A stretch of DNA of 64,000 bases from Paragemmobacter amnigenus (GTDB lineage: Bacteria > Pseudomonadota > Alphaproteobacteria > Rhodobacterales > Rhodobacteraceae). The stretch is taken from positions 1 to 64,000 of the forward strand of contig NZ_JAAATX020000014.1 of the NCBI RefSeq assembly GCF_009908265.2. The letters run 5' to 3'. Below are positions 46,808 through 62,129 of this stretch, piece after piece; position 1 is the first letter of the stretch; every line of letters starts with the position of its first letter. Below the pieces are notes generated by a model. It searched no databases. It was given only the letters and a program-made list of their open reading frames with translations, and had not been told where the DNA came from. A program made the translations under genes and the position numbers.

Positions 46808-47704
46808 TCAACCCATACGCTCCGAAGCGTAGGAGCCTGGAGACGCTGGAAAGACTAATGTTCTATGGCCGTTTATGAATACCCGTCCGTTGACATGTGC
46901 GTGGATCGCCCGTGCCAGAACCTGAGATTCAACATCGCGCCCGAGGCTGACGTAGTCCTCGTTCGACTGTGCGTGAGTAACGCGGATGGTGTCCTGCTCG
47001 ATGATCGGACCTTCATCTAGGTCGGCCGTGACGTAATGCGAAGTAGCCCCGATGAGCTTCACGCCCTTTTCAAAGGCTTGCTTGTAGGGATTTGCGCCCT
47101 TGAAGCTGGGCAAGAAGGAATGGTGGATGTTGATGATCCGACCTGAGAACTTCTGGCACATCTCGTCCGACAACACCTGCATGTAGCGCGCCAACACGAT
47201 CAGTTCCGCGCCGCAATCCTCCACGATCCGCATCTGCTGCGCTTCGGCCTCAGCCTTGCTCTGAGGGGTCACCTTTATGCAGTGATAGGGAATGTCCTGA
47301 TTTACGACAACTTTCTGATAATCCATGTGGTTCGAGATGACACCCACGATCTCCACGGGCAGCGCCCCGATACGCGAGCGGTAGAGAAGATCATTCAGGC
47401 AGTGGCCAAAGCGACTTACCATGACAACAACTTTGCGCTTGGCCGCTTCATCGAAGAAGGAAAAGTCCATGCCGAAGCGGTCGGCAATTGGCGCGAAGCC
47501 ACTTTTAAGGTCGGCAAGGCTCCGCCCCTCTTCTGAAACAAAGCTGGTCCGCATGAAAAAACGCCCCGTCCCAACATCGTCAAACTGGGCAGAGTCGGTG
47601 ATGTTGCCGCCACTTTCTGCCAGATAGGTGGAGATCGCTGCGACGATCCCGCGGGTTGAGGGACAGGTGACGCGAAGGGCGAAACGGGAAGGAGAAGTGT
47701 TCAT
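46808..47704 (-). CDS. purU: Formyltetrahydrofolate deformylase
   Basis: A 298-residue PurU (ATG 47704 behind AGGACC). It has the N-terminal ACT domain (about 8-80, LRVTCPSTRGIVAAISTYLAE in parts) and a C-terminal formyltransferase-fold hydrolase with GVISNHMDYQ, LARYMQVLSDEMC, IINIHHSFLPSFKGANPY and ATSHYVTADLDEGPII, including the catalytic Asn/His/Asp. It releases formate and tetrahydrofolate from 10-formyl-THF. It is the last gene of the long minus-strand moc-like operon and follows folD by 14 bp, so it would unload the C1 unit made by O-demethylation. Confidence 0.92.
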   Translation of the reverse strand: MNTSPSRFALRVTCPSTRGIVAAISTYLAESGGNITDSAQFDDVGTGRFFMRTSFVSEEGRSLADLKSGFAPIADRFGMDFSFFDEAAKRKVVVMVSRFGHCLNDLLYRSRIGALPVEIVGVISNHMDYQKVVVNQDIPYHCIKVTPQSKAEAEAQQMRIVEDCGAELIVLARYMQVLSDEMCQKFSGRIINIHHSFLPSFKGANPYKQAFEKGVKLIGATSHYVTADLDEGPIIEQDTIRVTHAQSNEDYVSLGRDVESQVLARAIHAHVNGRVFINGHRTLVFPASPGSYASERMG

Positions 47705-47718
47705 GGTAGGTCCTGTTG

Positions 47719-48591
47719 TCAGGCTTTTGCCGGGAGCTTGCGGCGAAAGGCGGTCAGTGTGTTCTGAAGCAGGCACGCGATTGTCATCGGACCCACGCCG
47801 CCGGGCACCGGGGTGATGGCCCCAGCGTGGCCTGCCTCAGCAAAGGCCACATCCCCCACAAGGCGCGTGCTGTCTCCGTCTGGGATGCGGTTGATCCCAA
47901 CGTCGATCACGGTCGCACCGGGCTTGATCCAGTCGCCGCGGATCATCTCGGGTCGTCCGACCGCTGCGATCAGGATGTCGGCCGTCCGGCATAGGGCTGG
48001 CAGATCGCGCGATCCGGAATGAGCGATGGTCACCGTACAGTTTGCACCGAGCAGCAACTGCGCCATCGGCTTGCCGACGATGTTCGACCGACCGACGATC
48101 ACGGCATGCAGGCCCGACAGGTCGCCCAGATGGTCCTGCAACAGGAAAAGACAGCCAAGTGGCGTGCAGGGCACCAGAGCGTCCTGTCCGGTCGCCAGCT
48201 GTCCGGCGTTGACCACATGAAACCCATCGACATTCTTGGAAGGATCAATCGCAGCGATGACGGCGGAGGCGTCCAAATGCGCGGGCAAAGGCAACTGCAC
48301 CAGGATTCCGTGCACGTTCGGATCGGCGTTCAATTGCGCGATCAGGCCCAGCAGCACGTCTTCCGACGTTTCTGCGGGCAGGCGATGCTCGAAGGATTTC
48401 ATACCTGCGGCGATGGTCGCCTTGTGCTTGGCACCCACATAGACTTGGCTGGCGGGGTCATGGCCCACCAGCACGACGGCCAGACCGGGTTTCAACCCGG
48501 CTTCGTCGAACAAAGACCTTACTTCGTCCGCGATCCGCGTGGTCATCCGGGCGGCAAAGGCTTTGCCGTCAATGCGTTGAACCGGCGCCAT
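47719..48591 (-). CDS. folD: Methylene-THF dehydrogenase / methenyl-THF cyclohydrolase
   Basis: A 290-residue FolD from ATG 48591; longer frames lack the typical start. Motifs: [12 protein letters not shown] with the catalytic Lys, [13 protein letters not shown], the NADP site [18 protein letters not shown], and [18 protein letters not shown]. It converts 5,10-methylene-THF to 10-formyl-THF. Every bacterium has a chromosomal folD, so a plasmid copy next to purU inside a catabolic operon points to a dedicated C1 oxidation branch. Confidence 0.93.
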
Positions 48592-48793
48592 AGGATCAAA
48601 CCGCGCCCATTTGAGAATTGTCTTCAACACGTGGGAATAGACGGTGAAGGCTCATTTCGGTCTCCTTGGATGATGCGGCCCTTAAACGGCTCTTGAAAGG
48701 GGTGGGCTGACTTGCAGTCAAGTGGAGCGTGAAGGCGGACCTCCGACGGTGCACTCGGGCTGCAGTCTCCACGTTTGTTACAGGTGCCAATTC

Positions 48794-49855
48794 CTAGACC
48801 GTCCCTCCTGGTCGGGCCTGCGGTGACGCGAGAGTGATCGAGCGGCTCTCGGCCGCGCTTTGGCGCGCCGCGTCCAACACCGCCAGTGTTCGGGCGCCTT
48901 CATCGGCGGTTACAGGCGGGGCCGCGCCAGTTCGGACAGCGGCTGCAAAGGCCTCGTAATAGTCGTGATACCGGCCCTGTTCGGACGGAATGCGCTGTTG
49001 ACCCGACGCACTGTAGAGAGTTCCCCAGTTCGCCTCAGGCTCACGCCCCCAACCCTCAAGATCATCGACCGGGCGTCGTCCGGCGAAGATGTCTTGCGCC
49101 TGAACATCCGTAGTTAAAGAGACATAGGCACCCTTGTCGCCATAGGCGCGCAATTCGCGGCAGTCGAGGTGGTTCAGTTTACTGGCCGACAAGTGGCTAT
49201 GGGCACCGCTTTCGTGCCGCAGAGTGATGGTGAAGCCAACATCCGTTCTCCCGCCGGGCATGTCGACATGATCCAACTGCGCGTCCACGGCCGATACGGG
49301 GCCGAGCAGATAGATCATCTGATCGACGACATGACTGCCCAAGTCTCGCAAAAGGCCGCCCGTTGGCCCCTGCTCGACGGTTTGCGGACTGTCCTGATCC
49401 ATGCGGCTTTCGATCCGCCAGACCTGGCCCAATCGTCCGTCGTCGATGAGCTTTTTCAGGGTCTGCAGATCTGCATCAAACCGGCGGTTCTGATAGACGC
49501 CAAGAACCACACCTTTTGCCCACGCGGCACGGTCCAGCTCCAGCGCCGCTTCAGAATTGGGGGCAAAGGGCTTATCTGCAATGACATGCAAACCGGCGGC
49601 AATTGCCTCCAGCACCAGTTCGCGCCGTGTTTGGGGTGGAGTGGTAATCGTCACGGCGTCACAGACACCAGCAGCAATCAGCGCAGAAAGGCTGGGGTAG
49701 ATCGGGGTGTCAGACCAGTCGGCACGGGCTTTGGCAACGGTTTCCGGCGCCCGCGCAACGATGGCGGTTAGGGTGCAACCTGTTGCCGCCGCAATGAAGG
49801 GCGTGTGGAAATGCTGCCCGCCCGTGCCATAGCCAACCACCCCGATCTTGAGCAT
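48794..49855 (-). CDS. Gfo/Idh/MocA-family oxidoreductase (second copy)
   Basis: A 353-residue NAD(P)-dependent dehydrogenase. The Rossmann start is IGVVGYGTGGQHFHTPF, the EKP-type motif appears as ADKPFAPNS (about 94-102), and the C-terminal domain has LLRDLGSHVVDQMIYLLG with the catalytic His. It lacks the exact EKP found in MocA/IolG and more resembles YvaA/scyllo-inositol dehydrogenase-like members. It ends the tightly spaced part of the operon, three bases after the PanB-like gene. The substrate is probably a cyclitol or a keto-cyclitol. Confidence 0.85.
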   Translation of the reverse strand: MLKIGVVGYGTGGQHFHTPFIAAATGCTLTAIVARAPETVAKARADWSDTPIYPSLSALIAAGVCDAVTITTPPQTRRELVLEAIAAGLHVIADKPFAPNSEAALELDRAAWAKGVVLGVYQNRRFDADLQTLKKLIDDGRLGQVWRIESRMDQDSPQTVEQGPTGGLLRDLGSHVVDQMIYLLGPVSAVDAQLDHVDMPGGRTDVGFTITLRHESGAHSHLSASKLNHLDCRELRAYGDKGAYVSLTTDVQAQDIFAGRRPVDDLEGWGREPEANWGTLYSASGQQRIPSEQGRYHDYYEAFAAAVRTGAAPPVTADEGARTLAVLDAARQSAAESRSITLASPQARPGGTV

Positions 49856-49858: not shown

Positions 49859-50677
49859 TCAGCCTTTCACAGATGACAGGAAGGCGTCGAACTCGTCGTC
49901 CTTGATCGCGACGGTATGTTCAGGCCCGGGATACCCGCCAGCGTTGACATCGGCCTTGAACGCTTTGAAAGCCGCGATCCGCTCGTCTTGAATGGCCTTC
50001 AGCTTCGGCCCCATGTCTGCATAGACCTTGCCGTGACGGGGCTTGTGATTGACGCCGTAGCCGCAGACATCCTCGGTGAACAGGTACTGGGCGTCGGCAT
50101 GTTTGCCTGCCCCCATGCCCAGCATGATCAAGCTGGAGTTCTCCGTCAGGTATTGCGCGACGCGGTCTGGCACCACCTCCAGCTCAGCCGCGAAAACCCC
50201 GATCTTTTCCAGCATCTGGGTATGGCGCCACAGTGCAGCGGCCTCATCCCCAGTCTTTCCGACAGCACGCCAGCCGGTCCAGGTGATATAGGACGGCACA
50301 AGGCCGATGTGGCCGACAACCGCCAGATGGTTGTCGGCAAGGGTTTTCTGTATGTCGTACGAAGCCGAGCAATAGAAGGCGTCGCCGCCAAGGGACGAGA
50401 ACTTGAACGCCGTCCTCAGATATTCCTCGGCCGTTGTCAGGAAGGTGCCATGCAACGGGCCCCATCCGCCATAAGGCAGACCGACCTGCACAAAGCAATC
50501 GCCCGCCGCTTCGCGCATCTCGGCATCAAAGAAGCGGCCTTCAATCGACAGCATGTTGATGCCCGCCGCCGCCGCCGCGGCGGCCTCTTCCTTGGTCTGA
50601 ACGTAGAGCATCGAGATCTTCTCGCCGCGCTTCTTCATCGCGCGCAGGTCCTGGACGAGGGGACGGTTGTGATACAT
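49859..50677 (-). CDS. Divergent PanB-like (ketopantoate hydroxymethyltransferase-family) protein
   Basis: A 272-residue TIM-barrel protein. The family is recognisable from VVGHIGLVPSYITWTGWRAVGKTGDEA (about 120-146, in parts), AAELEVVPDRVA (163-174, the catalytic Glu167 kept) and MLGMGAGKHADAQYLF. However, the metal-binding and substrate residues of true PanB are not conserved: the VGDS segment reads SIEG (44-47), the ADLPF Asp is Gly in VGLPYG (65-70), and the VKIEGG stretch is FYCSAS (101-106). PanB uses methylene-THF, and here the gene sits with folD and purU. It is therefore either a C1-transferring enzyme with altered chemistry or a lyase. Pantothenate synthesis is unlikely. Confidence 0.75.
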   Translation of the reverse strand: MYHNRPLVQDLRAMKKRGEKISMLYVQTKEEAAAAAAAGINMLSIEGRFFDAEMREAAGDCFVQVGLPYGGWGPLHGTFLTTAEEYLRTAFKFSSLGGDAFYCSASYDIQKTLADNHLAVVGHIGLVPSYITWTGWRAVGKTGDEAAALWRHTQMLEKIGVFAAELEVVPDRVAQYLTENSSLIMLGMGAGKHADAQYLFTEDVCGYGVNHKPRHGKVYADMGPKLKAIQDERIAAFKAFKADVNAGGYPGPEHTVAIKDDEFDAFLSSVKG

Positions 50678-50695: not shown

Positions 50696-51880
50696 TCAGG
50701 TGGCGGCAAGCAGCCGCTTCAGGTTTTGAGAGGGATCGGCCAATCGGCCCGCGTCGACGATTGTCCGCCGCTCGATGAGCTTCTCGAATATCCGGATGTC
50801 CTTGGACGTTGCATTGCCGGGCCCGATGCCTGCCGCTGCGACAAGGTTTTGCGTAGCGTCACACTGAAAGACGACGGTCGTGTCATCGCCAGTTGAACGG
50901 CTATGAATGGGCGCGCCCAGATCGAAGATCCCGGCGACCTGAAGGCTCAGATCGTATTGATCCGACCAGAACCACGGAACCTTGTTGTACGGAACCGACT
51001 TCCCCAGAATTGCCAGCGCGACATGCTCGCCCTGATCTTGTGCGGCCTTCCAGCTTTCCAGTCTGACCCGCTGACCACGCCAGTCAAAGTTGCAACAGTC
51101 GCCTGCAGCAAAGACGTCGGGCGCCGAGGTCCGAAAATCGCCATCGACGACGATCCCGTTCTGAACTACCAATCCGCCAGCTTCAGCTAGTCCCGTCTCT
51201 GGCACCGCGCCCACACCGGCGATCACCGTGTCAAATTTCATCGAGGACCCGTCGACCAAATCGATCCGGTCCGAACTCGCGCTGACGACGCCGGTTTCAA
51301 GTTTGAGGCTAACTCCTTCGAGGGCATGCCTTTCATGCAAGATTTTCGCAATCTGCGGCGGGACGGCGCGACCCAGAAGACGTGGACCCGCTTCAACGAC
51401 CGTCACCTCTGCGCCTGCCTGGCGCGCCCGCGCCGCAAGCTCCAAGCCGATAAAGCCACCCCCGATGATGCCTATCTTTGCGCCGGGCGTCAGGCGCGAC
51501 AGGATCACTTGCGCATCAAGATTAGTGCGCAGGGTTAAGCAACCCTCCATCCCGGGAAACAGCCTCGCCCGCGCGCCCGTCGCAAGCAGCAGGTTATCAT
51601 AGGCCATGGCCTCGCCGCCTTTCAGCGAAACCAGACGAGTGCCGAGGTCGATGTTGGTCACGAATGCGCCCGGGCGCAGCGCTATTCGCTTGTCAGAATA
51701 GGCCTCCGCTGTTCGGATCGCTGCTATTTCGCCGGTCTTGGAGAGCGGCGGGCGTTCATAGGGCAGCGCGACCTCGGCCCCGATCAGAGTGACCTCTCCC
51801 ACATATCCGTGTTCGCGCAGGGCAAAGGCTGCCCTCACGCCGCATTCTCCAGCACCGATGATGACGACACCGCTCATCAT
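50696..51880 (-). CDS. FAD-dependent ferredoxin reductase (MocF-like)
   Basis: A 394-residue reductase of the putidaredoxin-reductase type (start 51880 or the adjacent ATG at 51877). FAD motif VIIGAGECGVRAA (about 5-17), the PYERPPLSK loop, NAD motif IGIIGGGFIGLELAARA (about 135-151) and DVFAAGDC (about 262-269) are present. It would pass electrons from NAD(P)H to the MocE-type ferredoxin encoded two genes upstream. In Rhizobium, MocF is such a reductase in 3-O-methyl-scyllo-inosamine demethylation. Confidence 0.85.
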   Translation of the reverse strand: MMSGVVIIGAGECGVRAAFALREHGYVGEVTLIGAEVALPYERPPLSKTGEIAAIRTAEAYSDKRIALRPGAFVTNIDLGTRLVSLKGGEAMAYDNLLLATGARARLFPGMEGCLTLRTNLDAQVILSRLTPGAKIGIIGGGFIGLELAARARQAGAEVTVVEAGPRLLGRAVPPQIAKILHERHALEGVSLKLETGVVSASSDRIDLVDGSSMKFDTVIAGVGAVPETGLAEAGGLVVQNGIVVDGDFRTSAPDVFAAGDCCNFDWRGQRVRLESWKAAQDQGEHVALAILGKSVPYNKVPWFWSDQYDLSLQVAGIFDLGAPIHSRSTGDDTTVVFQCDATQNLVAAAGIGPGNATSKDIRIFEKLIERRTIVDAGRLADPSQNLKRLLAAT

Positions 51881-52654
51881 CTACACCGTGAACGCCGCCC
51901 GGAATGCCTCAAGCGCGGCTTCGGGCTCCTTGGCAGCGTATGCCTCCATGCCGACAGGGCCATTGTAACCCATAGCGTCGAGGGCGCGGGCGATGCTCGG
52001 CCAGTTCATCTCTCCTGTCCCGGGTTCACAGCGCCCGGGATTGTCGGCAACCTGAATTTCCCCGATCCAAGGCAGGCAGGCCTCTGCCCAGCGGATAACG
52101 TCACCCTCACCAATCTGCGTGTGGTAAAGGTCAAGATTAATGCGAAGGCGTGGTCGGTTGACAGCTGAGACAAGCGACAGAACCGCAGCAGTCGAATTGA
52201 ACGGGCAGCCTGGATGTTCGCGCAGATTCAGGTTCTCAAGCGTGAAGGTCACGTCAAGTTCCTCGGCCAGGTCGCAGATGCGGTGAAGCGTATCGCGAGC
52301 CCTGATTTCCATCCCCGGGGCAAAACTGGCCAGATGGGGGATCGGCAGGCCAAGATCGCCCAACCCGGTGCCATGCAGGTTCAACCTTTGAACGCCCAGT
52401 CTCTTGCCGATGATCGCGGTTTCGCGCGCCGATTTCAAAAGCGCCGCGGCACCGTCCTTGTCGGTCAGCCTCCCCTTGAGATAGCCGTTCATGATCGTGA
52501 AGGTCGCGCCCGTGCGTTCCAGCGCCGTCACATCCCAGTCTGTCCAGTTCCACAGGCCGACGCCGAAGCCCATGTCCTTCAGGCGACTTGCCCGCCATGA
52601 GATCGGGCGGTCGCGCCATAGCATCTCCGCGCAGGCGGCAAGCTGAAAGGCCAT
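51881..52654 (-). CDS. TIM-barrel sugar isomerase/epimerase (hydroxypyruvate-isomerase-like)
   Basis: A 257-residue AP-endonuclease-2-type TIM barrel from ATG 52654. Residues that suit metal binding are seen in FTLENLNLREHPG (Glu), RINLDLYHTQIGEGD (Asp, His), GEIQVADNPGRCEPGTGEMNW and GPVGMEAYA (Glu). The closest pattern is hydroxypyruvate isomerase (Hyi/OtnI). It lies one base after mocE and directly before the reductase gene. It may isomerise a keto-cyclitol or its ring-opened product. Confidence 0.82.
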   Translation of the reverse strand: MAFQLAACAEMLWRDRPISWRASRLKDMGFGVGLWNWTDWDVTALERTGATFTIMNGYLKGRLTDKDGAAALLKSARETAIIGKRLGVQRLNLHGTGLGDLGLPIPHLASFAPGMEIRARDTLHRICDLAEELDVTFTLENLNLREHPGCPFNSTAAVLSLVSAVNRPRLRINLDLYHTQIGEGDVIRWAEACLPWIGEIQVADNPGRCEPGTGEMNWPSIARALDAMGYNGPVGMEAYAAKEPEAALEAFRAAFTV

Positions 52655-52655: not shown

Positions 52656-52964
52656 TCAGATGTCCACCAGCACGCGCCCGCCTTCAACCTTCGTCTTGTA
52701 GCAGTGCAGGTTGTTGCAGGCCGGCGGGGTCTCAACCTCGCCGGTGGTGAAGTCAAAGATCGAGGAATGCTTCGGGCATTCGATGGTGTTCTCCATCACC
52801 AGCCCATCGGCCAGATGGATGTCTTCATGCGTGCAAAGGCCATCGGTGCAGAAATAGCCATCTTCATGGTTGCGGAAGATCGCAAAGGTGCGGCCGCCGT
52901 GGTCAAAGCGGATCACGTCTTCGGCGTCGATATCGTCGGTCGAGCAGGCATCAATCCAGGCCAT
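52656..52964 (-). CDS. mocE: MocE-family Rieske [2Fe-2S] ferredoxin
   Basis: A 102-residue Rieske ferredoxin. Both cluster-binding pairs are intact: Cys44 and His46 in CTHEDIHLADG, Cys63 and His66 in CPKHSSIFD. The sequence type (FCTDGLCTHEDIHLADGLV in parts, PPACNNLHCYKTKVE) is that of the MocE ferredoxins from rhizopine catabolism. It would carry electrons from the reductase at 50696 to a membrane hydroxylase. This is the strongest single marker that the island is moc-like. Confidence 0.9.
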   Translation of the reverse strand: MAWIDACSTDDIDAEDVIRFDHGGRTFAIFRNHEDGYFCTDGLCTHEDIHLADGLVMENTIECPKHSSIFDFTTGEVETPPACNNLHCYKTKVEGGRVLVDI

Positions 52965-52974: not shown

Positions 52975-53934
52975 TCAGATTGCTTGAGGTTGGTAGTCGG
53001 CGGGGGCCTTCGGCATGACGCCCTGCAAAAGCGACACGGATTTCTCGAGCCCTTCCAGCGAGTTCAAGAGCACGTCTTCATGCTCGATCGACAGCCAGCC
53101 GTCATAGCCGCCCATCTTCAGCCGATAGCAGAACTGCCGCCACCATTCCTCGCCATGTCCAAAGCCAAGGGTGATGTAGCTCCAGCTGCGGGCGGGAATG
53201 TCCATCAGGCTGCCGTTCTCCAACAGGCTGGTGGTGGCCTGCACGGGAGCGTTGAGGAAGGTATCCTTGGCGTGGACGTGATAGATGGCGTCGCCAAGTC
53301 GCTCCGCCGCAATCAGCGGGTCTGCGCCCATCCAGAACAGATGGCTGGGGTCGAGGTTGGCACCAATCACGGGACCAACGGCGTCGCGCAGTTTCAGAAG
53401 GCTGGGGACGTTGTAGACGCACTGGTTGCCATGAAGCTCCAGCGCGATCTTCTCGACGCCGTTTACCTTGGCCAGCTCCACGATTTCGGCCCAGAACGGA
53501 ATCAGTTTTTCCTGCCACTGATACCGAAGGATTTCCTGCGTTTCGGGCGGCCAGGAGGAGACGACCCAGTTCGGCATCTGGTCATTGGGCGATCCAGCTG
53601 GAAGTCCCGACATGGTGCAGACGGTCTTGATCCCCATTTGCCCGGCGACGCGGATGGTATCGCGGAGGTCACCTCCCTGCTTCGGATCGGTGGGATGCAG
53701 GGGGTTCCCGTTGGCGTTCAGACTGATCACCTCCAGCCTGCGGTCGCTAAAGGCCTTGAGAAACGCCTTTTGACCAAACGTATCGCCCAGCATGGCCTTC
53801 AGATCGAAATGCGGGGCGGTGGACCAGCCGCAGGTGTTCACTTCGACGCCGGACACCCCCATGCGTGCAGCGTGGTCCAGCATTTCGGTGAACGACATGC
53901 CGCCGAGGCTGTCGGATACAAATCCCAGTTTCAT
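52975..53934 (-). CDS. mocC: MocC/IolE-like TIM-barrel protein
   Basis: A 319-residue sugar-phosphate isomerase/epimerase-fold protein. It starts KLGFVSDSLGGMSFTEML and has VSGVEVNTCGW, the metal residues in KIALELHGNQ (Glu), IGANLDPSHLFWMGAD (Asp, His), IYHVHAKDT (His) and WLSIEHED (Glu). The family includes inosose dehydratase, cyclitol epimerases and MocC of the rhizopine cluster. Its start overlaps the stop of the MocA-like dehydrogenase (ATGA), so the two are coupled and should act in succession on the same cyclitol. Confidence 0.83.
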   Translation of the reverse strand: MKLGFVSDSLGGMSFTEMLDHAARMGVSGVEVNTCGWSTAPHFDLKAMLGDTFGQKAFLKAFSDRRLEVISLNANGNPLHPTDPKQGGDLRDTIRVAGQMGIKTVCTMSGLPAGSPNDQMPNWVVSSWPPETQEILRYQWQEKLIPFWAEIVELAKVNGVEKIALELHGNQCVYNVPSLLKLRDAVGPVIGANLDPSHLFWMGADPLIAAERLGDAIYHVHAKDTFLNAPVQATTSLLENGSLMDIPARSWSYITLGFGHGEEWWRQFCYRLKMGGYDGWLSIEHEDVLLNSLEGLEKSVSLLQGVMPKAPADYQPQAI

Positions 53935-54935
53935 GCGTAGAACTCCGGTTTGGCGATCATTTCGACGGCGAGCTTGGTCCCGGACGTAAGCGCGCGCGCG
54001 CCGGTCTCGGCAACCTGCGCTGCGGCATAGCCATCCCAGGCACTGGAGCCGATCTTGGTGAATTCGCCCGTGTTGACGAAATGCAGAAAGTCCCGGTTCT
54101 GCCGGACATATGCCTCGTGATACCGACTGCGCCAGTCAGCGTCATATCGGGTGGAAGAGGCCAGCCGCATGTCAGTGCGGGTATAGGCCACGTTGTTCAT
54201 GGCAACCGACCCAGCCTCACCCACCAGTTCGGCGCGCACGTCATAGCCGTAGGCCGCGTTATTGTTGATCTCGATCGTGACCAACTGGCCTTCGGTGGTT
54301 TCCAGCACCATCACGACCGGGGCCACCCGCGCATCCGACCGCTTGGGCTGAAAGGCGGATATGCTGGTGTATTCACAACCCAGCACATGGCGGACCACGT
54401 CAAACTCATGCGGGGCCGAGTTGGTGATCGCCATCGCGCCGGTAAAATCGGCTGACGGCGTTTCCACGTTGCGGTGGAAGTTGTGCATCATCAGCGCGCG
54501 GCCAAGGTGGCCTTGGGTCAGCGCGGCTTTCATCTCGGCATAGGATTGGTCAAACCGGCGCATGAAACCGACTTGCACGAAACGGCGGCCAGCGGCCTGT
54601 TCGGCGGCCATCACGGCAAGACATTCCGCAGGCTTTTGCGACAAGGGCTTTTCACAAAGCACCGGCTTGCCCGCCTTGATGCATGCCAGGCTCAGCGGTG
54701 TGTGCGTGAAATCGGGGCTGGCGACAATCACGGCATCGACGTCGGCGCGGGCAATCACGGCCTCGGGAACACTGGCAACATCAGTGGCGCCAAGGCTGTC
54801 GGCGACGGACTTTGCCCGAGACTGGTCCATGTCGCAGACCACTTGCAGGGTCGCGCCCGGCAGGTCTTCAGCCACGATCCTTGCGTGGTCGGCCCCCATC
54901 AGGCCCGCGCCGATTACGGCAATTCTTGTTGTCAT
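53931..54935 (-). CDS. mocA: Inositol 2-dehydrogenase / MocA-like oxidoreductase
   Basis: A 334-residue Gfo/Idh/MocA enzyme from ATG 54935, behind GGGAAGA. NAD motif IAVIGAGLMGADHARI (about 5-20), the catalytic Lys in LCEKPLS (about 98) and VGFMRRFDQSY, followed by ITNSAPHEFDVVRHVLG with the Asp/His pair, all match IolG/IdhA/MocA. It should oxidise a (methyl) inositol or the demethylated product to a keto compound (inosose). It is the first enzyme gene after the ABC importer. Confidence 0.88.
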   Translation of the reverse strand: MTTRIAVIGAGLMGADHARIVAEDLPGATLQVVCDMDQSRAKSVADSLGATDVASVPEAVIARADVDAVIVASPDFTHTPLSLACIKAGKPVLCEKPLSQKPAECLAVMAAEQAAGRRFVQVGFMRRFDQSYAEMKAALTQGHLGRALMMHNFHRNVETPSADFTGAMAITNSAPHEFDVVRHVLGCEYTSISAFQPKRSDARVAPVVMVLETTEGQLVTIEINNNAAYGYDVRAELVGEAGSVAMNNVAYTRTDMRLASSTRYDADWRSRYHEAYVRQNRDFLHFVNTGEFTKIGSSAWDGYAAAQVAETGARALTSGTKLAVEMIAKPEFYA

Positions 54936-55043: not shown

Positions 55044-55862
55044 TCAGTGCGCGGGTGAGGGCGGGTGCCCGTCATGACTGGCCATGTAGCCTTCGATCGA
55101 GGCTTCCAGCGTGGCCATGGTTTCGCCGCCGGCCATCAGGTCGGTGATCTCTTCACGTGTCTTCTCGCCCTTGCGGAAATCTGATGCGACGGCACCACGG
55201 ATGAGAACGGCGAAGTGGTCGCCCACAGCCATGGCGTGCATGACCTGGTGGGTGATGAACACCACGGCGAGACCGCGCCTCTTGGCCTCGTTGACAATGC
55301 GTAGAACGTGGGCGGCCTGCTTCACACCGAGTGCCGCCGTGGGCTCGTCAAGGATCAGAACACGCGCCCCGAAATGAACTGCGCGGGCAATGGCGAGTGA
55401 TTGCCGCTCGCCCCCCGACAGGCCACCAACGAGGCGGTCCCCATCTGTGATGCGGGTGATGCCAAAGCTTTGCACGGCTTTCACCGCGACTTCGTTTGCA
55501 AACTTCCGATCAAAAACCTTGAATGGCCCCCATCCTTTCGTCGGCTCGACCCCGACGAAAAAGCTGCGGCCGATGCTCATCAGGGGAAACGTGCCACCAA
55601 ACTGGTGCACGGTGGCGATGCCGCGATCTGCAGCCTCACGTGGCGTGGTCAAGCGAACTGGCGCACCATCCATCAGGATTTCGCCAGAAGTCGGCTGATG
55701 CACGCCGGACAAGAGCCTGATCAGCGTAGACTTTCCGGCGCCATTGTCGCCGAGCAGACACAGCACTTCGCCAGCGCGGACCTCCAGATTGATGTCATGC
55801 AGCACATCGATGGGTCCGAAGCTTTTGTTGACGCCTTTCAGCGATACGATGGATGCGGTCAT
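55044..55862 (-). CDS. Sugar/cyclitol ABC transporter ATP-binding protein (single domain)
   Basis: A 272-residue ATPase with Walker A GDNGAGKSTLIRLLSG (about 37-52), signature LSGGERQSLAIARA and Walker B VLILDEPTAALG. It has one nucleotide-binding domain only, like FrcA, instead of the duplicated 500-residue form of most CUT2 importers. It must dimerise. The start overlaps the permease stop (ATGA). Confidence 0.9.
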   Translation of the reverse strand: MTASIVSLKGVNKSFGPIDVLHDINLEVRAGEVLCLLGDNGAGKSTLIRLLSGVHQPTSGEILMDGAPVRLTTPREAADRGIATVHQFGGTFPLMSIGRSFFVGVEPTKGWGPFKVFDRKFANEVAVKAVQSFGITRITDGDRLVGGLSGGERQSLAIARAVHFGARVLILDEPTAALGVKQAAHVLRIVNEAKRRGLAVVFITHQVMHAMAVGDHFAVLIRGAVASDFRKGEKTREEITDLMAGGETMATLEASIEGYMASHDGHPPSPAH

Positions 55863-56878
55863 GCCTTGGCCCCTTTCTTCTTCGGCGCATAGGACAGCGC
55901 CATCTTGCGGAAGGTGTTGTTCATCAGGACGGCAACCAAAAGCAGGATGCCGATGATCAGGCTGGCCCAGTTGGCGTCAAACCCGGTGTAGTAGATGCCC
56001 TGGTTGACGATGGCGAAGGTCAGAGTGCCCAGCACGATGCCGAAGATGGAACCGTAGCCACCCGTCAGAAGCACGCCACCGACCACGACAGAGATGATGG
56101 CGTTAAAGATATAGGACTGACCCGCCGAGACTTGCGCCGAGTTGTAAAGGATCGCCTGGCTGAGGCCCACGAAGGCCGCGCTCATGCCTGAGCACATGAA
56201 GAGGATGATCGTTACGCGGTCGGTTGGAATGCCGGCGTTGCGCGCCGAGACCTTGTCGCCACCCATGGCCAGGATCCAGTTCCCGTACTTCGAGTAGTGA
56301 AGGACGAAGGCCCAGAAGGCTGCGGCCGCGATCCACCAGAAGATGGTGACCTGAAAAACGCCGCCGATGAAATGGCCCAGCAGAAGCTTAGCCTCCGGCC
56401 CGGCTTGAAGCTTCACGCTGGTGGTGCCGGTGATAATCACCGCCAGACCCAGCAGCAGGCCCGCCACGGCAAACAATGTGCCCAGAGTCACGATGAAGGA
56501 CGGGACTGCAGTTTTGACCACCAGAAGCCCATTGATCAATCCGACCATTGCCCCGAGGGCCAGCGCCGCCCCGATCCCCACTACGATGGGTAGCCCGAAA
56601 TGCCCCGATATAATCGCGCAGGTCATCGAACCGGCTGGAACCATGGAGCCGATGGAAATGTCCAGCTCCCCGGCGATCATCAAGAGCCCGATTGGGATCG
56701 CAATGATGCCCAGAGAGGCGGCCACGTTCAGCCAGCTTGCAGCACCATTGGGAGATGCGAAATTTGAACCACCAAAGATCCAGAAGAAGACAAAGACCGC
56801 AGCCAGGCCCAAAAAAGATCCTGTTTCCGGTCGGCGCAGCAAGGCGCCAAGCGACATGCGTGGGTTGGGGTCGGTCAT
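55859..56878 (-). CDS. Sugar/cyclitol ABC transporter permease
   Basis: A 339-residue membrane protein from ATG 56878 (GGAGAC upstream), with about eight to ten hydrophobic segments. The CUT2/BPD_transp_2 signature is readable in GELDISIGSMVPAGSMTCA, MGGDKVSARNAGIPTDRV and SVVVGGVLLTGGYGSIFG. It pairs with the single-domain ATPase and the binding protein on either side. RbsC/FrcC-type permeases import monosaccharides and inositols. Confidence 0.92.
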   Translation of the reverse strand: MTDPNPRMSLGALLRRPETGSFLGLAAVFVFFWIFGGSNFASPNGAASWLNVAASLGIIAIPIGLLMIAGELDISIGSMVPAGSMTCAIISGHFGLPIVVGIGAALALGAMVGLINGLLVVKTAVPSFIVTLGTLFAVAGLLLGLAVIITGTTSVKLQAGPEAKLLLGHFIGGVFQVTIFWWIAAAAFWAFVLHYSKYGNWILAMGGDKVSARNAGIPTDRVTIILFMCSGMSAAFVGLSQAILYNSAQVSAGQSYIFNAIISVVVGGVLLTGGYGSIFGIVLGTLTFAIVNQGIYYTGFDANWASLIIGILLLVAVLMNNTFRKMALSYAPKKKGAKA

Positions 56879-56994: not shown

Positions 56995-57975
56995 TCAGCG
57001 ATAACCTGCGCCGGCACCCGCCAGCGTGGCATCGATGTTGGCGCTGTCCACGATCCCCGGTCCGGTCAGCACGGGGGCAGAGGCAATGGCCAGACCGTAG
57101 TTTACATAGGCATCCGCCATGGTGACCGCGAGGAAGCCCTGCAGCCAAGGCTGTTGGTCCACCGCAAACAGCTGAGTGCCCGCTTTGATCCGGTCCAAGC
57201 CCGTGCCATCCATGTCGAACGAGGCGAGTTGAACTTTACCGGTCAGACCGGCCTGGTCGATCCCGGTGGCGGCAGAGTTCGCGTCGCCCGCCGAGATGGT
57301 GATCGCACCATTGATGCTTGGGTCGCCAAGCAGAGTAGCCTTGATAGCTTCGGCGACCGCCGTCGGATCGCCAAAGGCCGAGGCAGGCAGGGGAAGCTGG
57401 GTCGAAACGCCACCTTCCTTGCCAATTCCGTCAGACACCCCCTTGCAGCGGTCTTCCAGGTTCTGCGCGCCCGGAACGGTGTTGACGCAGATCACATTCT
57501 TGAAGCCATGGCTGCCGTAATAGGCACCGGCCGCCAGGCCCGCTGTGTATTCCTCGTTGCCGATGTAGTTGATGGCGCCCAGCTCCTTCGCCTTGTCGGC
57601 ACCGCCCGAGTTATACAAAATGACTGGAATGCCGGCGGCCTGGGCCGCCTTGATCGCCTCGTCCTGAGCATCCGGCACCCAGTTCGGCACCGCGATGACC
57701 GAGGCACCTTGCGAAATGGCCGTGCGGACGAGGTTCGCCGCGTCGCCACCGATGTTGTCATAGTTCTGCAGCATCAGATAGTTGACAGTGCCTCCATGGG
57801 CCTGAACGACCAGCGTGCCGTCGTCGATGCCCTTCTTTACCTTGGCAAAGAACGGGTCATCGGCCTTGCCGCCAACGACGGCAATCACGGCGCCATCGGC
57901 CAAGGCCATCGTGGCGCCAAAGGCAATTGCGGTGGTGGTCATCGCCAGCCGCATAAGGGTTTTCTTGATCGTCAT
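56995..57975 (-). CDS. Periplasmic sugar/cyclitol-binding protein (MocB-like)
   Basis: A 326-residue type 1 periplasmic binding protein. The signal peptide covers residues 1-26 (KKTLMRLAMTTTAIAFGATMALA, in parts). The mature fold shows AVVGGKADDPFFAKVKKGID, YNSGGADKAKELGAINYIG, GAITISAGDANSAATG and VDQQPWLQGFLAV. Family members include RbsB and MocB, which binds rhizopine. It is the first gene of the transport operon, 117 bp upstream of the permease, and faces a separate 116-bp gap from the hydroxylase. Confidence 0.9.
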   Translation of the reverse strand: MTIKKTLMRLAMTTTAIAFGATMALADGAVIAVVGGKADDPFFAKVKKGIDDGTLVVQAHGGTVNYLMLQNYDNIGGDAANLVRTAISQGASVIAVPNWVPDAQDEAIKAAQAAGIPVILYNSGGADKAKELGAINYIGNEEYTAGLAAGAYYGSHGFKNVICVNTVPGAQNLEDRCKGVSDGIGKEGGVSTQLPLPASAFGDPTAVAEAIKATLLGDPSINGAITISAGDANSAATGIDQAGLTGKVQLASFDMDGTGLDRIKAGTQLFAVDQQPWLQGFLAVTMADAYVNYGLAIASAPVLTGPGIVDSANIDATLAGAGAGYR

Positions 57976-58091: not shown

Positions 58092-59096
58092 TCAGCTTTG
58101 CGTCTTGTTCATTCGAGCTCGTTTTGCCGCAAAGCGCTTCTCCATCTGCGCTTCTCCATCCTTGGATCCATCGTGGAACGTCCCGAACCAACGGTCGAAG
58201 GGCACCAGCCCGTCTGAGTAGTTCACCTCGAAATACTTGTGGTGCAGGTAGTGGGAGTAGGCCTGCGTGTTGATCGCGCCCTCGCCGACCTCGACCTTGT
58301 CGAACCCGATGTGACCCACGACTGCACCCGTGCCGCTAAGTTGAAGGTGGTAGAGGACCAGCAGGGGATGCGACGGGAACACCAGGTGGATCAGGATGTC
58401 AGACCAGTAGAGCAGATGCTCGACCGGGTGCATCGACAAGCTGGACCACGGACTTGGATTGACCGAGTTGTGGTGAACCGAGTGGACGTATTTGTAGAGC
58501 GGCCCCTGGTGGATCAGCCAGTGAATGCAGAAGAAATGCGCTTCATGAATTAGGGGTATCAGCAGGCCCAAGATCACCAAAGCCCAAGGGTTGGCCTCGA
58601 ACGTGGTCCAAGGTCCCCAGCCGATTGCCCAGAGGTGCAGCATGACGACTTCATAAGCCGTCCAGATCGGCACCCCGGTGCCAAAGCTGCGGACGAAGTT
58701 GTCGATGTTCTGGCTCTTGAAGAGGAATACGTCGGATTTCTTGTCCGCCGGGAACAGTCCGTTGAACTTGAACCGGTTGCCTTGCGCGCGGCGGATGTAG
58801 AGCCGAAGTTCCATCAGGCCGTAGAGCACAAACACAATCGCGGAGTTGCGCAGCCACAGGTAGCCGATCCAGCGCCAGTCGAAATTGGCCAAGGTCTCTT
58901 TCGCCGGGGTCGCATAGAACCAGATCACAGAACCAAAGGCGAAGAACAGCGCGTTCCACGGCAGGAAGTAATGCGGCAACCACGCCAGAAGTTTGGCCGG
59001 GCGCGGTGGCCAGACGAACAGGGGTGCGCTTTCCAGTCGGGCGTTGGGGGCATAGTCCCCCCGCTTGTTGCGCGTGCCGAATTTGAGATCGTCCAT
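58092..59096 (-). CDS. Fatty-acid-hydroxylase-superfamily membrane monooxygenase (MocD role proposed)
   Basis: A 334-residue integral membrane di-iron enzyme from ATG 59096 (the open frame reaches 59240). Several hydrophobic helices (about 45-62, 80-100, 145-162, 168-186) enclose the His boxes HFFCIH (187-192), HSVHH (205-209), HPVEH (223-227) and HYLHH (282-286), the pattern of sterol desaturase/hydroxylase enzymes. With the Rieske ferredoxin and reductase of the same operon it would form a three-part oxygenase. O-demethylation, releasing formaldehyde, fits folD/purU; the classical MocD is described as a hydrocarbon-oxygenase-type protein. Lipid or carotenoid hydroxylation is the alternative. 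Confidence 0.75.
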   Translation of the reverse strand: MDDLKFGTRNKRGDYAPNARLESAPLFVWPPRPAKLLAWLPHYFLPWNALFFAFGSVIWFYATPAKETLANFDWRWIGYLWLRNSAIVFVLYGLMELRLYIRRAQGNRFKFNGLFPADKKSDVFLFKSQNIDNFVRSFGTGVPIWTAYEVVMLHLWAIGWGPWTTFEANPWALVILGLLIPLIHEAHFFCIHWLIHQGPLYKYVHSVHHNSVNPSPWSSLSMHPVEHLLYWSDILIHLVFPSHPLLVLYHLQLSGTGAVVGHIGFDKVEVGEGAINTQAYSHYLHHKYFEVNYSDGLVPFDRWFGTFHDGSKDGEAQMEKRFAAKRARMNKTQS

Positions 59097-59308
59097 CTTT
59101 CTGTCCCGCCCAATTGTCCATGCCGCTGGCACCAGAAAGTCAGTCCAGGACTGTACTCCAGTCCGGGGATTTGCAGCGTCAAAGGACGTCATTCGATATC
59201 TGTGGACGCTTGGCGCGCCCTTTCCCCTGATGTCGGTCAACCTCTGTTCCGAGGCGACCTTTCTGGCGCAGAGTCATATCGAAGCTTGACAAAATGTCGC
59301 GGGGCGCA

Positions 59309-59326: not shown

Positions 59327-59359
59327 CGGTGGACCAGAAAAATCTAAAGCATTGAAATA

Positions 59360-60400
59360 ATGGCAAAAAAAACCTCTTCCAGAGTGACACTTTCTGATGT
59401 CGCGGCCTTGGCGGGCGTGGGCAGCGCCACCGTGGACCGTGTGATCAACGACCGCGGCAATGTCAGTGACGATGTTCGCAAACGCGTTCTGGATGCCGCG
59501 CGAACCTTGGGATTGAAGCGGATTCTGCCTTCGTCGCACCATAGCATCGTTCGCCTGAACGTGATTCTGGCGCGGCCAGAACTGCCCCTGATCCGGCGTA
59601 TGGGGTTCGAGTTCCGCCGCCTTGCCCAACGCATGAACCACTCTCTCGCGATCCACCGGACCGTCCTGGAGGACGAAGAACCTGCAACCATCGTCGCGGC
59701 CTTGGACCTAAGCGGCTATGACGCCGCCATCGTCTATGCGCAGGACCATCCCCTGATCCGCGCTGCCATTGCCGATCTGGCAAGGCAGGGTCGGCCAGTG
59801 GTCACGATGATCTCGGACCTGCCCGGATCGGCGCGCTTGGCCTATGCGGGGACCGACCATTACAAGGCGGGACGCTCGGCGGGGTATTTCCTGGACCTGA
59901 TGGCCCGGCCCGGGTCGATTGTCGTGCTCTGCAATCACCTGGGTTTCCAATCCCATGCTGAGCGATTGTATGGACTAAAGGATCAGCTGGCAGAGACCGG
60001 TAAACTGGTTGTGGCCGAGGTGGTTGAAGGGGGCGATGACGCAGTCCGCTCTGAAGTGCGCCTGAAGGAGGCTTTCCGCCGCAATCCCTCGACCGTGGCG
60101 GTTTACAACATCGGCGCGGGCAACCGGGGTGTGGTGGGGGCGATCAAGTCGGACATTCTGCCTTCACGCCCGCTCTTCATCGGTCATGAACTGACGCCCT
60201 TCACACATGTCAGTCTGCGCGAAGGGACGATGACCCTGACGATTGACCAAAGCCCGGAATTGCAGGCTCAGTTCGCACTGGAGGTGCTTCTGAACCATTT
60301 CGGCTTTGAAGGAGTAACCGATCTGGCGCCGCCCTACACCTCCACCGTACCCATAGTGCTTTATGGCCCGCAGAACCTGCCCGACTCGGTGCCCGGCTGA
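59360..60400 (+). CDS. LacI-family transcriptional regulator
   Basis: A 346-residue repressor. The N-terminal helix-turn-helix VTLSDVAALAGVGSATVDRVIND (in parts, about 9-31) is typical LacI/RbsR. The effector domain (about 65-340) is a periplasmic-binding-protein fold, so it probably senses the imported cyclitol or a derivative. It is divergent from the moc-like operon and followed by an aldo/keto reductase. Two matching operators lie at 59309 and 60397. The ribosome-binding site is weak. Confidence 0.9.
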   Translation: MAKKTSSRVTLSDVAALAGVGSATVDRVINDRGNVSDDVRKRVLDAARTLGLKRILPSSHHSIVRLNVILARPELPLIRRMGFEFRRLAQRMNHSLAIHRTVLEDEEPATIVAALDLSGYDAAIVYAQDHPLIRAAIADLARQGRPVVTMISDLPGSARLAYAGTDHYKAGRSAGYFLDLMARPGSIVVLCNHLGFQSHAERLYGLKDQLAETGKLVVAEVVEGGDDAVRSEVRLKEAFRRNPSTVAVYNIGAGNRGVVGAIKSDILPSRPLFIGHELTPFTHVSLREGTMTLTIDQSPELQAQFALEVLLNHFGFEGVTDLAPPYTSTVPIVLYGPQNLPDSVPG

Positions 60401-60414
60401 TGGATTTCGATCAA
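60397..60414. promoter_or_regulatory. LacI-type operator 2
   Basis: CTGATGGATTTCGATCAA matches operator 1 at 15 of 18 positions and keeps the dyad. It overlaps the stop codon of the lacI-like gene and lies 60 bp before the aldo/keto reductase start, consistent with control of that operon too. Confidence 0.6.
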
Positions 60415-60474
60415 CGTCGGGCTATGCGATGAGGCCGCCGGCCCCTATTCCCTTGCGGAAAACAAGAGGGCTTC

Positions 60475-61449
60475 ATGCAGTACAGGGCGTTCGGGCGAAC
60501 CGGCTGGCAGGTGTCGGAGATCGGGTTTGGTGGCTGGCAGATCGGCGGACAATGGGGCCGTGTCGATGATGTAGCCTCTATCCGCACCCTTCTGCACGCG
60601 TTCGAAGCCGGGATCAATTTCGTCGATACGGCAGAGCTTTACGGCGCGGGGCATTCGGAATCCGTGATCGGGCAAGCGCTCCGACAATGGCGGGGGGCCA
60701 AGATTTATGTCGCGACGAAGGCTCAGCCGACAGTCTGGCCGAACCCGGAAGATCTTGCGCCCGAGATGCGAGGGCGGTTTCCGAGCTGGCATTTGCGGGC
60801 AAATGTTGACGCCTCCTTGCGACGGTTGGGTGTCGAAAGGATCGACCTATTCCAACTCCATTCGTGGGGTCCGGCAGGTCACCGCGAACTGGATTGGCTG
60901 GAAACCCTGAGCGACCTGCGGACCGAGGGCAAGATTGACCAGATCGGCGTTTCACTCCGGGACAACCAGCCGCAGGAAGGAGTAGCGCTGGCCCGGCTGG
61001 GGTTGGTGGCGTCCGAGCAGGTGATCTTCAACATGTTCGAACAGCCACCGCGTGACGCGTTGTTCCCGGCAGCCAGAGCCGGCGGGACCGCGATCATCGC
61101 ACGCGTTCCGCTGGATTCCGGGTCACTGATCGGGCAATGGACCGACAGCAGTTACGAAAACTTCGAGCCCGGCTCGCAGCCGCATCAGATGTTCCGGGGC
61201 GACCGCTTTGCTGAAACCCTGGCGAGAGTGGCCGCGCTGAAGTCCGATGTTGCACCCTACTATTCCAACCTGGCCGAGGCGGCGATGCGTTACGTTCTGG
61301 CGCATGACGCAGTGTCGGTTCTGATCCCCGGCATGAAGTCGCCGGACGAAGTGGACATGAACATCCGCTACAGCGATGGCGCCGAATTTCCGCATGACCT
61401 TCTGGCCAAGATGCCGCGACACGCCTGGGTGAGGAACTTTTACCGATGA
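60475..61449 (+). CDS. Aldo/keto reductase
   Basis: A 324-residue AKR starting behind GAGGG. The catalytic tetrad is readable: Asp and Tyr in FVDTAELYG (about 49-57), Lys in VATKAQ (about 83) and His in LFQLHSWG (about 127). It may reduce or, with NAD+, oxidise a cyclitol or sugar intermediate; some AKRs (IolS-like) occur in inositol clusters. It overlaps the next gene by four bases. Confidence 0.87.
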   Translation: MQYRAFGRTGWQVSEIGFGGWQIGGQWGRVDDVASIRTLLHAFEAGINFVDTAELYGAGHSESVIGQALRQWRGAKIYVATKAQPTVWPNPEDLAPEMRGRFPSWHLRANVDASLRRLGVERIDLFQLHSWGPAGHRELDWLETLSDLRTEGKIDQIGVSLRDNQPQEGVALARLGLVASEQVIFNMFEQPPRDALFPAARAGGTAIIARVPLDSGSLIGQWTDSSYENFEPGSQPHQMFRGDRFAETLARVAALKSDVAPYYSNLAEAAMRYVLAHDAVSVLIPGMKSPDEVDMNIRYSDGAEFPHDLLAKMPRHAWVRNFYR

Positions 61450-62129
61450 GACAGATCGAACGCCTGCGCCCGCACCAGATCGAAGCTGCGTTGGCCGAAC
61501 GCTCATTGATCTATCTCCCGCTCGGCACCATCGAATGGCATTGCCACCACCTTCCAGTCGGGCTTGACGCCCTGACCGCGCACGGCCTTTGCCTGCTCGC
61601 AGCAGAGGAAACCGGCGGCCTGGTCTGGCCGGTCCTTTACTATGGCACGGGTGGCGGTCATAGAGACTTTCCTTGGACTGTGATGATGTCCGAACGCGTG
61701 GAAATCGAGGCCCTCTTGACCCAAACCCTGCGAAGGCTCAGTCAATTGGGCGTTCAGGAAGTCGTGATTTTCTCCGGTCATTTCGCGGACGAGCAGTTGC
61801 AAATGATCGACGCGATGGCTGAGGGCTGGAACGCAACCGGCCACCCGCCACAGGTCAAAGCCTTCGCCGTCAACCGTGCTGACGTCCCGAAATTTCCGCC
61901 AGACCACGCAGGATTGTTCGAGACCACGTTGCTTGCTGGTTTGACGGAGGGGTTGATTGACCTTTCCAAGTTGGGATCTGCCGCGGATGACATCGACCGT
62001 TTCGATCCCGCTTCGCCCCTGTGGGGTATCGTTGGCACAGACCCCCGCGAGATTCCCCCGTCGGATGGGGCGACGGTGGTCCGCAGTGTAGTCAGTGCAA
62101 TCACGGCCCGTGCCGCCTCCCAGCTGTGA
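61446..62129 (+). CDS. Creatininase-family hydrolase
   Basis: A 227-residue metal hydrolase. The creatininase signatures IYLPLGTIEWHCHHLPVGLDA (in parts, Glu and His ligands about 29-40), HRDFPWTV and VVIFSGHFADEQ are present. The family includes creatinine amidohydrolase and, as I recall, hydrolases acting on diketo-inositols in bacterial inositol catabolism. Opening of a diketo-cyclitol ring is therefore an attractive role here. Creatinine use is unlikely because no creatinase or sarcosine oxidase is present. It is coupled to the aldo/keto reductase gene (ATGA). Confidence 0.8.
   Translation: MRQIERLRPHQIEAALAERSLIYLPLGTIEWHCHHLPVGLDALTAHGLCLLAAEETGGLVWPVLYYGTGGGHRDFPWTVMMSERVEIEALLTQTLRRLSQLGVQEVVIFSGHFADEQLQMIDAMAEGWNATGHPPQVKAFAVNRADVPKFPPDHAGLFETTLLAGLTEGLIDLSKLGSAADDIDRFDPASPLWGIVGTDPREIPPSDGATVVRSVVSAITARAASQL

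Follow-up and report, generated by a model that had tools for sequence, protein, structure and literature searches.

What a set of rhizopine-type (moc) oxygenase genes might achieve in the company of two folate one-carbon genes and a protein that resembles a pantothenate enzyme is the question raised by an island of 16 genes in Paragemmobacter amnigenus. The stretch analysed here (the window) is 64,000 nt long and belongs to a 129 kb contig, C14 in host genome G000. The island is probably a catabolic cassette for an O-methyl inositol, in which the PanB-like protein, termed PanBL, would pass the methyl carbon to folate for release as formate. More broadly, and with a likelihood that falls somewhat short of even, PanBL may be a PanB-derived partner of demethylases that has dropped 2-oxo-acid chemistry and moves the hydroxymethyl or formaldehyde unit of oxidative O- (perhaps N-) demethylation onto tetrahydrofolate (THF), across the Alphaproteobacteria and with several oxygenase families.

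Thirteen of the genes lie on the minus strand, with three divergent on the plus strand. Their types, assigned by Pfam or NCBIfam cut-offs, had been named in an earlier sequence-only reading, and each is present at the place given there with a score over such a cut-off. In order of transcription on the minus strand, followed by the plus strand, they are:

58092..59099, minus strand: MocD-type membrane hydroxylase, FA_hydroxylase/sterol-desaturase type (PF04116, 2e-17; start at MDDLKFG, from relatives; histidine boxes at residues 240, 253 and 330 of the listed open reading frame, ORF)
56995..57975, minus strand: sugar/cyclitol binding protein (PF13407; top PDB match 4ru1, 1.8e-32)
55859..56878, minus strand: ABC importer permease (PF02653)
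55044..55862, minus strand: ABC importer ATPase (PF00005)
53931..54935, minus strand: GfoB, inositol-dehydrogenase-like oxidoreductase (from PDB matches; start at MTTRIAV)
52975..53934, minus strand: TIMb, AP_endonuc_2 TIM-barrel protein, weakly IolE-like (PF01261; 26.7 bits against TIGR04379, far under the cut-off of 290)
52656..52964, minus strand: mocE, Rieske [2Fe-2S] ferredoxin (TIGR02377, 158.2 bits against a cut-off of 136.15; Rieske CxH...CxxH motif, CTH/CPKH)
51881..52654, minus strand: TIMa, AP_endonuc_2 TIM-barrel isomerase/epimerase (PF01261, 1.1e-26; start at MAFQLAA)
50696..51880, minus strand: mocF, FAD ferredoxin reductase of the putidaredoxin-reductase type (PF07992 and PF14759)
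49859..50677, minus strand: PanBL (PF02548 Pantoate_transf, 3.7e-32)
48794..49855, minus strand: GfoA, Gfo/Idh/MocA oxidoreductase (Pfam)
47719..48591, minus strand: folD, methylene-THF dehydrogenase/cyclohydrolase (PF02882, 1.3e-64; start at MAPVQRI)
46808..47704, minus strand: purU, formyltetrahydrofolate deformylase, 10-formyl-THF to formate and THF (PF00551 Formyl_trans_N, 2e-41; start at MNTSPSR; ACT domain just under cut-off)
59360..60400, plus strand: LacI-family regulator (PF00356 and PF13407)
60475..61449, plus strand: aldo/keto reductase (PF00248)
61446..62129, plus strand: creatininase-family hydrolase with weak IolN similarity (PF02633; 28 bits against NF041098, far under the cut-off of 245)

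In the proposed route, the ABC importer would bring in a methylated cyclitol such as pinitol, ononitol or a similar ether, and the MocD-type hydroxylase, fed by MocF and MocE, would hydroxylate the O-methyl group to an unstable hemiacetal. A hydroxylated O-CH3 group is O-CH2OH, which breaks down to inositol and formaldehyde. PanBL would move the hydroxymethyl or formaldehyde unit to THF, giving 5,10-methylene-THF, FolD would oxidise this to 10-formyl-THF, and PurU would free formate and allow THF to be recycled. The freed inositol isomer may be oxidised and isomerised by GfoA, GfoB and the two TIM-barrel proteins, before entering the iol pathway encoded on host contig C7; IolI-like TIM-barrel isomerases catalyse such an isomerisation step in Bacillus subtilis. 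The LacI regulator would control the island genes. The sequence-only reading had already proposed that an O-methyl cyclitol is imported and oxidatively demethylated, its methyl group being disposed of through THF to formate; this scheme is supported and fits everything tested.

The substrate is indicated mainly by relatives of the island. In Vannielia litorea (L110), genes on one strand encode two permeases, a binding protein, a further permease, an ATPase, GfoB, TIMb, a desaturase-type MocD, MocE, TIMa, MocF and PanBL, and the run continues with GfoA, IolG, PurU, IolC, IolD, an IolE-like protein (41 % identical to the reference) and, after a 1.2 kb gap, IolB; no folD occurs there. As these genes run into iolC-iolD-iolE-iolB, an O-methyl inositol is likelier than rhizopine. 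Amongst the best 80 of at least 527 PanBL loci from GTDB genomes, searched with the proteins of the window and a few references, at least two of iolB, C, D and E follow on the same strand in three. Along with L110 these are L103 and L105, both with iolC, iolD and iolB, and the former also with iolE; the stretches of L107, L109 and L119 end where iolC starts. Marivivens displays MocD-MocE-PanBL followed by LacI, a TIM barrel, an importer, iolG, iolC, iolD, iolE and iolB. In the window, the island contains none of iolB, C, D or E; in the host, iolC, D, E and B lie side by side on contig C7, where iolC and iolB are truncated at the ends of the retrieved stretch.

The proteins themselves point in the same direction. 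The top PDB sequence match of the binding protein, 4ru1, is called a verified myo-inositol transporter in an excerpt of PMC10747050. For GfoB the top match is 3ec7, a 'putative dehydrogenase' (8e-60), followed by six inositol 2-/D-chiro-inositol 3-dehydrogenases from 6e-58, and its score against the NCBIfam equivalog NF052679 is 266.6 bits, with a cut-off of 540. The claim that an O-methyl inositol is at least as likely as rhizopine is therefore strengthened by 4ru1, by the GfoB matches and by the iol runs of L103, L105 and L110. That the substrate is instead 3-O-methyl-scyllo-inosamine, as for the rhizobial mocABCR-DEF genes, is very improbable. MocD/E/F-type oxygenase parts, a Gfo/Idh enzyme and a sugar-type binding protein are common to moc and the island (excerpts of PMC10107442 and PMC5789663), but, as had been noted from the sequence, the 16 island genes contain neither an aminotransferase nor a MocR-type regulator, LacI being the only regulator amongst them. 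Furthermore, in relatives the genes continue into iolC, D, E and B (there, with neither an aminotransferase nor mocR in the reference set, no search for these two was made), and the hosts include many Rhodobacterales besides rhizobia. Rhizopine as the main substrate was rejected on the absence of MocR and aminotransferase from the island and on the iol runs in relatives. According to excerpts of PMC5789663, Mimosa exudate induces in Rhizobium mesoamericanum the homologues of mocDEF, a mocB-like importer and iol genes. Pinitol is the most concentrated listed component of that exudate at 145 uM, with inositol at 0.73 uM; the authors took the induction as a sign of rhizopine use, yet pinitol would explain it equally well or better.

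A methylated hexose, pentose or glycoside in place of a cyclitol is quite unlikely, for all that the importer, Gfo/Idh and TIM-barrel enzymes belong to general sugar families, that TIMa is similar to hydroxypyruvate isomerase and ketose 3-epimerases, and that iol genes lie nearby in only a minority of loci. On a plasmid of Rhizobium leguminosarum, moreover, a GfoB–TIMb pair accompanies a sugar importer, and the 26 kb seen contain no moc genes. Against a sugar stand the direct runs into iol genes in relatives, an iolG-like dehydrogenase in 37 of the best 80 loci, and the fact that the binding protein and GfoB are closest to inositol proteins. The R. leguminosarum pair (pRL1; L224 11965-17642) displays approximately 74 % DNA identity, and may be a separate cyclitol module.

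With regard to PanBL, its description as PanB-like holds for the fold and for the PF02548 match, but by curated score it is no PanB orthologue, reaching 79.7 bits against a cut-off of 207.55, and 102.7 against 272, with the curated panB models. An AlphaFold model forms a PanB-type barrel (pLDDT 86), and the 28 top PDB chains in a Foldseek search are all PanB (best E 4e-17, TM ~0.67), with PanB-superfamily lyases and mutases ranking after them. Alignment of 41 PanBL with 14 canonical PanB from relatives (of 20 canonical stretches, six yielded no usable ORF and were dropped) reveals where the two differ. In the PanBL set, some 19 residues after the GDSxG motif (the D45 column) are gapped in at least 40 of the 41; column D88 (Escherichia coli D84) is G, S or A in all 41; column K118 (K112) is Y, M, F or I, with Y in 35; and column E120 (E114) is A, S or P in 36. 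The D45, D84, K112 and E114 columns, which we take to be the Mg2+ and 2-oxo-acid site under an assumed E. coli numbering, read D, D, K and E in 14/14 canonical PanB. H123 (H136) and E167 (E181) are invariant in both sets, whilst E165 and H215 are invariant in PanBL where canonical PanB has V (13/14) and F (14/14). Judged by these columns, most of the residues predicted to hold metal and 2-oxo acid are gone from PanBL, and two of the catalytic region are kept.

It is barely credible, then, that PanBL is an ordinary pantothenate-pathway paralogue, with folD and purU as housekeeping copies caught in the island. Automatic annotation does name it 3-methyl-2-oxobutanoate hydroxymethyltransferase; the host, however, has a separate PanB on contig C6 with canonical GDS, DMPF and KLEGG motifs, PanBL lies far under the panB cut-offs, and folD and purU accompany PanBL in distant genera, whereas amongst 20 canonical panB loci none has an oxygenase at up to 9 kb, and none has folD or purU at up to 4 kb. 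A normal PanB was rejected on the curated score, the residue columns and the oxygenase neighbourhood.

The company that PanBL keeps was assessed in 195 relatives, which gave 61 PanBL matches above 100 bits, 28 weaker, canonical-type matches (a part of the weaker ones listed) and all 54 MocE matches over the cut-off plus 14 below; the PanBL matches exclude G032:C20:30990, a short second fragment of a broken gene. MocE lies within 5 kb of 41 of the 61 PanBL matches, compared with 0/28 of the weaker ones, and PanBL within 5 kb of 36/54 MocE matches over the cut-off, so that the two are commonly paired. Using tblastn with reference proteins, an oxygenase was detected within 4 kb in 41/58 PanBL loci and 0/20 canonical panB loci (Fisher p 8e-9, p-values here being nominal as loci are related by descent); the 58 loci stand for 59 of the 61 matches, with G011:C46 left out, G052:C2:5322 present only as L034, and L075 counting as two. 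A second draw, for which 26 of 31 matches above 160 bits were used (the other five had already been seen), places an oxygenase within ~4.4 kb of the gene centre in 22/26 PanBL loci and within 9 kb in 24/26. Pfam confirmed the oxygenase class of all ten proteins submitted. PanBL directly adjoins a Rieske oxygenase in two loci (L074 and L075) and a P450 in one (L076), without MocE, and the shared theme is therefore oxidative chemistry and not one scaffold.

Additional arrangements of these genes were also encountered. A tandem PanBL pair adjoins the Rieske oxygenase of L075 (8908-10599). Host contig C3 harbours two more MocE and PanBL modules, at 187000-206000 (L041) and 256000-275000 (L042), of which one has an FA_hydroxylase and an importer and the other an FA_desaturase, perhaps one per methyl-inositol isomer.

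A more serious alternative, although still an unlikely one, is that PanBL acts on the carbon skeleton, by retro-aldol cleavage or isomerisation of the keto-inositol product, with the folate genes as a separate convenience. The PanB/isocitrate-lyase superfamily performs C-C chemistry on 2-oxo acids, its lyases and mutases follow PanB in the fold search, and folD or purU is nearby in only 10 of the best 80 loci. Conversely, PanBL remains beside the oxygenase where the sugar genes differ or are absent, it also accompanies oxygenase families other than the island's own, and the Mg2+ and 2-oxo-acid residues of PanB (in the roles assumed above) are mostly replaced. Transfer of the methyl carbon to folate has a biochemical rationale, in that spontaneous condensation of formaldehyde with THF is reportedly too slow for growth and PanB has been considered a possible catalyst (excerpts of PMC7073904). 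Being largely freed of the 2-oxo-acid site and tied to demethylase-type oxygenases, PanBL would be a natural candidate for the formaldehyde–THF catalyst.

The sequence-only reading also knew of no described cluster that combines moc oxygenase parts with folD, a panB-like gene and purU. The combination is not singular, however, nor a product of chance, as a search for the gene set across genomes shows that the same core recurs. The best 80 loci contain MocE in 75, a membrane oxygenase of either of two types in 66, the ABC ATPase in 65, the binding protein in 58, TIMa in 57, an iolG-like gene in 37, TIMb and GfoB in 26 each, MocF in 20, GfoA in 16, purU in 10 and folD in six; in 14 of these loci the stretch extends under 4.5 kb beyond PanBL on the downstream side, and in 14 under 6 kb on the upstream side. 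At 150 bits, folD or purU is present in 10/80, rising to 15/80 with partial matches above 60 bits. Both genes occur together in the window, L125, L132, L143, L151, L159, L174, L034 and L068, the last of these, from the host's genus, having desaturase-PanBL-mocF-folD-purU in a row, and they recur with MocE and the PanB-like gene in rhizobia and Rhodobacterales. A one-off combination was accordingly rejected. Searches of the open-licence PMC literature nevertheless showed no description of such a cluster. Reference-free clustering of ORFs, read by eye, gave no other recurrent one-carbon family amongst those in at least four loci. In a draw of 397 Pseudomonadota genomes, PanBL matches above 300 bits came from 21, each belonging to the family or class of the host, whilst genomes labelled as other classes did not exceed 146 bits (with a maximum of six candidates scored in nearly all genomes). 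L151 is titled a Comamonadaceae metagenome-assembled genome, and is possibly mis-binned. Host contig C21 carries a tandem pair of folD-like genes (L043, 3289-5025), which have 69 % and 42 % identity to the island FolD.

Several findings weigh against an O-methyl-inositol cassette in which PanBL feeds folate. GfoB reads NSAPH at the position of the inositol dehydrogenase motif, which we take to be DSAIH, and the aldo/keto reductase (0/80 above 250 bits) and creatininase (0/80) were not found in the related loci, their roles being guesses. No folD or purU match at the threshold used occurs in 70/80 loci (14/80 stretches end less than 4.5 kb downstream), and the folate exit is thus often left to housekeeping genes, or unused. 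Most PanB fold-match rows have an rmsd of ~15 A, with parts that superpose poorly, and D45 is not wholly lost, its column being D in 7/41 PanBL. Deletion of panB and ltaE in E. coli left formaldehyde-dependent growth unchanged (He et al., excerpts of PMC7073904); the result thus gives no sign of this activity in true PanB. In terms of neighbourhood, 18/54 MocE matches have no PanBL within 5 kb and 20/61 PanBL matches no MocE, and 17/58 PanBL loci display no oxygenase at 4 kb by tblastn. In seven of these 17 (the window, L041, L046 and L048-L051) the hydroxylase is farther off in the same run; L047, L055 and L059 have only MocE near PanBL; and L053, L067 and L069-L073 show neither oxygenase nor MocE within 4 kb. 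Amongst these last seven, the PanBL of L067 adjoins mur-type genes, the L053 stretch opens at the end of a contig, and an ORF of the desaturase family lies at a greater distance in L072. Few loci pair PanBL with a Rieske oxygenase (directly adjacent in two) or a P450 (in one), and L237, one of the 22 positive loci of the second draw, was counted from a weak Rieske match on the other strand.

A further weakness is that the desaturase, Rieske and P450 references for tblastn came from PanBL neighbourhoods (L036, L037, L042, L075 and L076, with three loci matching themselves), which favours PanBL loci. The control was therefore rerun with the Pfam models FA_desaturase, FA_hydroxylase, P450 and Ring_hydroxyl_A on the 20 whole genomes of the canonical control, using the 16 PanBL matches that are all those listed there above 100 bits, G052:C2:5322 included; hits were taken on contigs bearing PanBL or panB, some second pieces of split genes were left out, and one of the 20 canonical contigs, G001:C327, is only 3.4 kb long. 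An oxygenase was located within 4 kb of 12/16 PanBL matches (one a P450 on the other strand) and within 9 kb of 16/16, compared with 0/20 canonical panB matches at either 4 or 9 kb, where the nearest was 34 kb away.

The island also has a defined setting. Its genes fill 46808-62129, as originally delimited, but 46613 and 62373 make better boundaries, giving a 15.8 kb segment between virD4 and virB11:

44627..46612, plus strand: VirD4/TraG coupling protein, left flank (PF02534)
62374..63687 (listed ORF), minus strand: VirB11-type ATPase, right flank (PF00437)

The true start of VirB11 is probably nearer 63350 than that of the listed ORF, the Tabrizicola piscis gene being shorter. A Pfam search of the window places a MobA/VirD2-like relaxase before VirD4, and a RepC-type replication gene lies at 8502-9686. 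The virD4 region has 88-91 % DNA identity to three Paracoccaceae plasmids, from T. piscis, Neotabrizicola shimadae and Fuscovulum ytuae, with coverage of 87 % for a query of 2.1 kb. On the T. piscis plasmid, virB11 and virD4 face each other with 64 bp between, whilst that of N. shimadae carries, between the same two genes, a closely similar cluster of LacI, a PanB-like gene, hydroxylase, importer, MocE, TIMa, MocF, a second PanB-like gene, folD, purU and iolG. The island folD and purU are 89 % and 95 % identical to those of this cluster, in which close matches of GfoA, GfoB, TIMb, the aldo/keto reductase and the creatininase were not found. In F. ytuae the site holds different cargo with an S-(hydroxymethyl)glutathione dehydrogenase, apparently a betaine-type catabolic cluster; a moc-type cluster elsewhere on that plasmid showed no PanB-like gene, folD or purU. 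The cluster of F. ytuae contains close counterparts of the aldo/keto reductase (83 %) and of the creatininase. As the virB11–virD4 gap is filled differently across related plasmids, the island is plasmid cargo at a used site (window 46612-62374; NZ_CP034329.1 66557-69440; NZ_CP124536.1 61409-77589).

Two other features of these plasmids deserve mention. In N. shimadae (L223, 9309-10100) the extra PanBL sits directly upstream of the hydroxylase, in a cluster that already has one. In the window, a second catabolic cluster (13757-28500) on the same plasmid contains an FMO-like (possibly Baeyer-Villiger) monooxygenase, an esterase-type hydrolase, an Fe-alcohol dehydrogenase, an aldehyde dehydrogenase, acyl-CoA and beta-oxidation genes and a CoA transferase, resembling cyclic ketone or alcohol degradation.

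A PanB-derived family that accompanies demethylase-type oxygenases, at some loci together with folD and purU, is a concrete candidate for bringing formaldehyde from oxidative demethylation to the folate pool. If correct, PanBL would give formaldehyde an enzyme-catalysed way into the THF pool, working with oxygenases of the membrane desaturase and hydroxylase types and, at a small number of loci, with a Rieske oxygenase or P450. Genes annotated for pantothenate biosynthesis would then be relabelled, bacterial use of pinitol and other plant methyl cyclitols would be explained, and some loci read as rhizopine catabolism may turn out to serve pinitol.

Compared with known systems, PanBL shares with PanB (ketopantoate hydroxymethyltransferase) the fold and H123/E167 (E. 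coli H136/E181, the numbering again being assumed), but lacks ~19 residues, has D84, K112 and E114 replaced, and alone has invariant E165 and H215. The methanesulfonate locus of Filomicrobium encodes a 'PanB' with GcvT, this PanB-annotated gene, labelled by the authors as C1-moiety transfer, lying on a 20.3 kb segment with a formaldehyde-releasing oxygenase (excerpts of PMC4433239); the protein may be either PanBL or PanB. The moc rhizopine genes (mocDEF, mocR, mocBA and mocC of Sinorhizobium meliloti L5-30 and R. leguminosarum) resemble the island in MocD, MocE and MocF, a MocA-type Gfo/Idh enzyme and a binding protein, and moc catabolism depends on the inositol pathway, as is proposed here (excerpts of PMC10107442 and PMC5789663). 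They differ in that the island has LacI in place of MocR, adds PanBL, folD and purU, and has no inosamine genes. Another of the closest systems is S. meliloti SMb20817-20820 (LacI, mocD, mocE, mocF; names from an excerpt of PMC11387232), to which L037 would correspond by gene order, sharing with the island LacI, MocD, MocE, MocF and PanBL, there in one run; its MocD, however, is of the FA_desaturase type where the island has FA_hydroxylase, no sugar-type importer adjoins it, and no folD or purU occurs in the 25 kb seen. Lastly, the iol myo-inositol cluster has IolG-like dehydrogenases, isomerase-type TIM barrels and an importer in common with the island, to which it is joined in V. litorea, whereas the island adds a predicted methyl-ether oxygenase and one-carbon exit and has its iolBCDE elsewhere, on C7.

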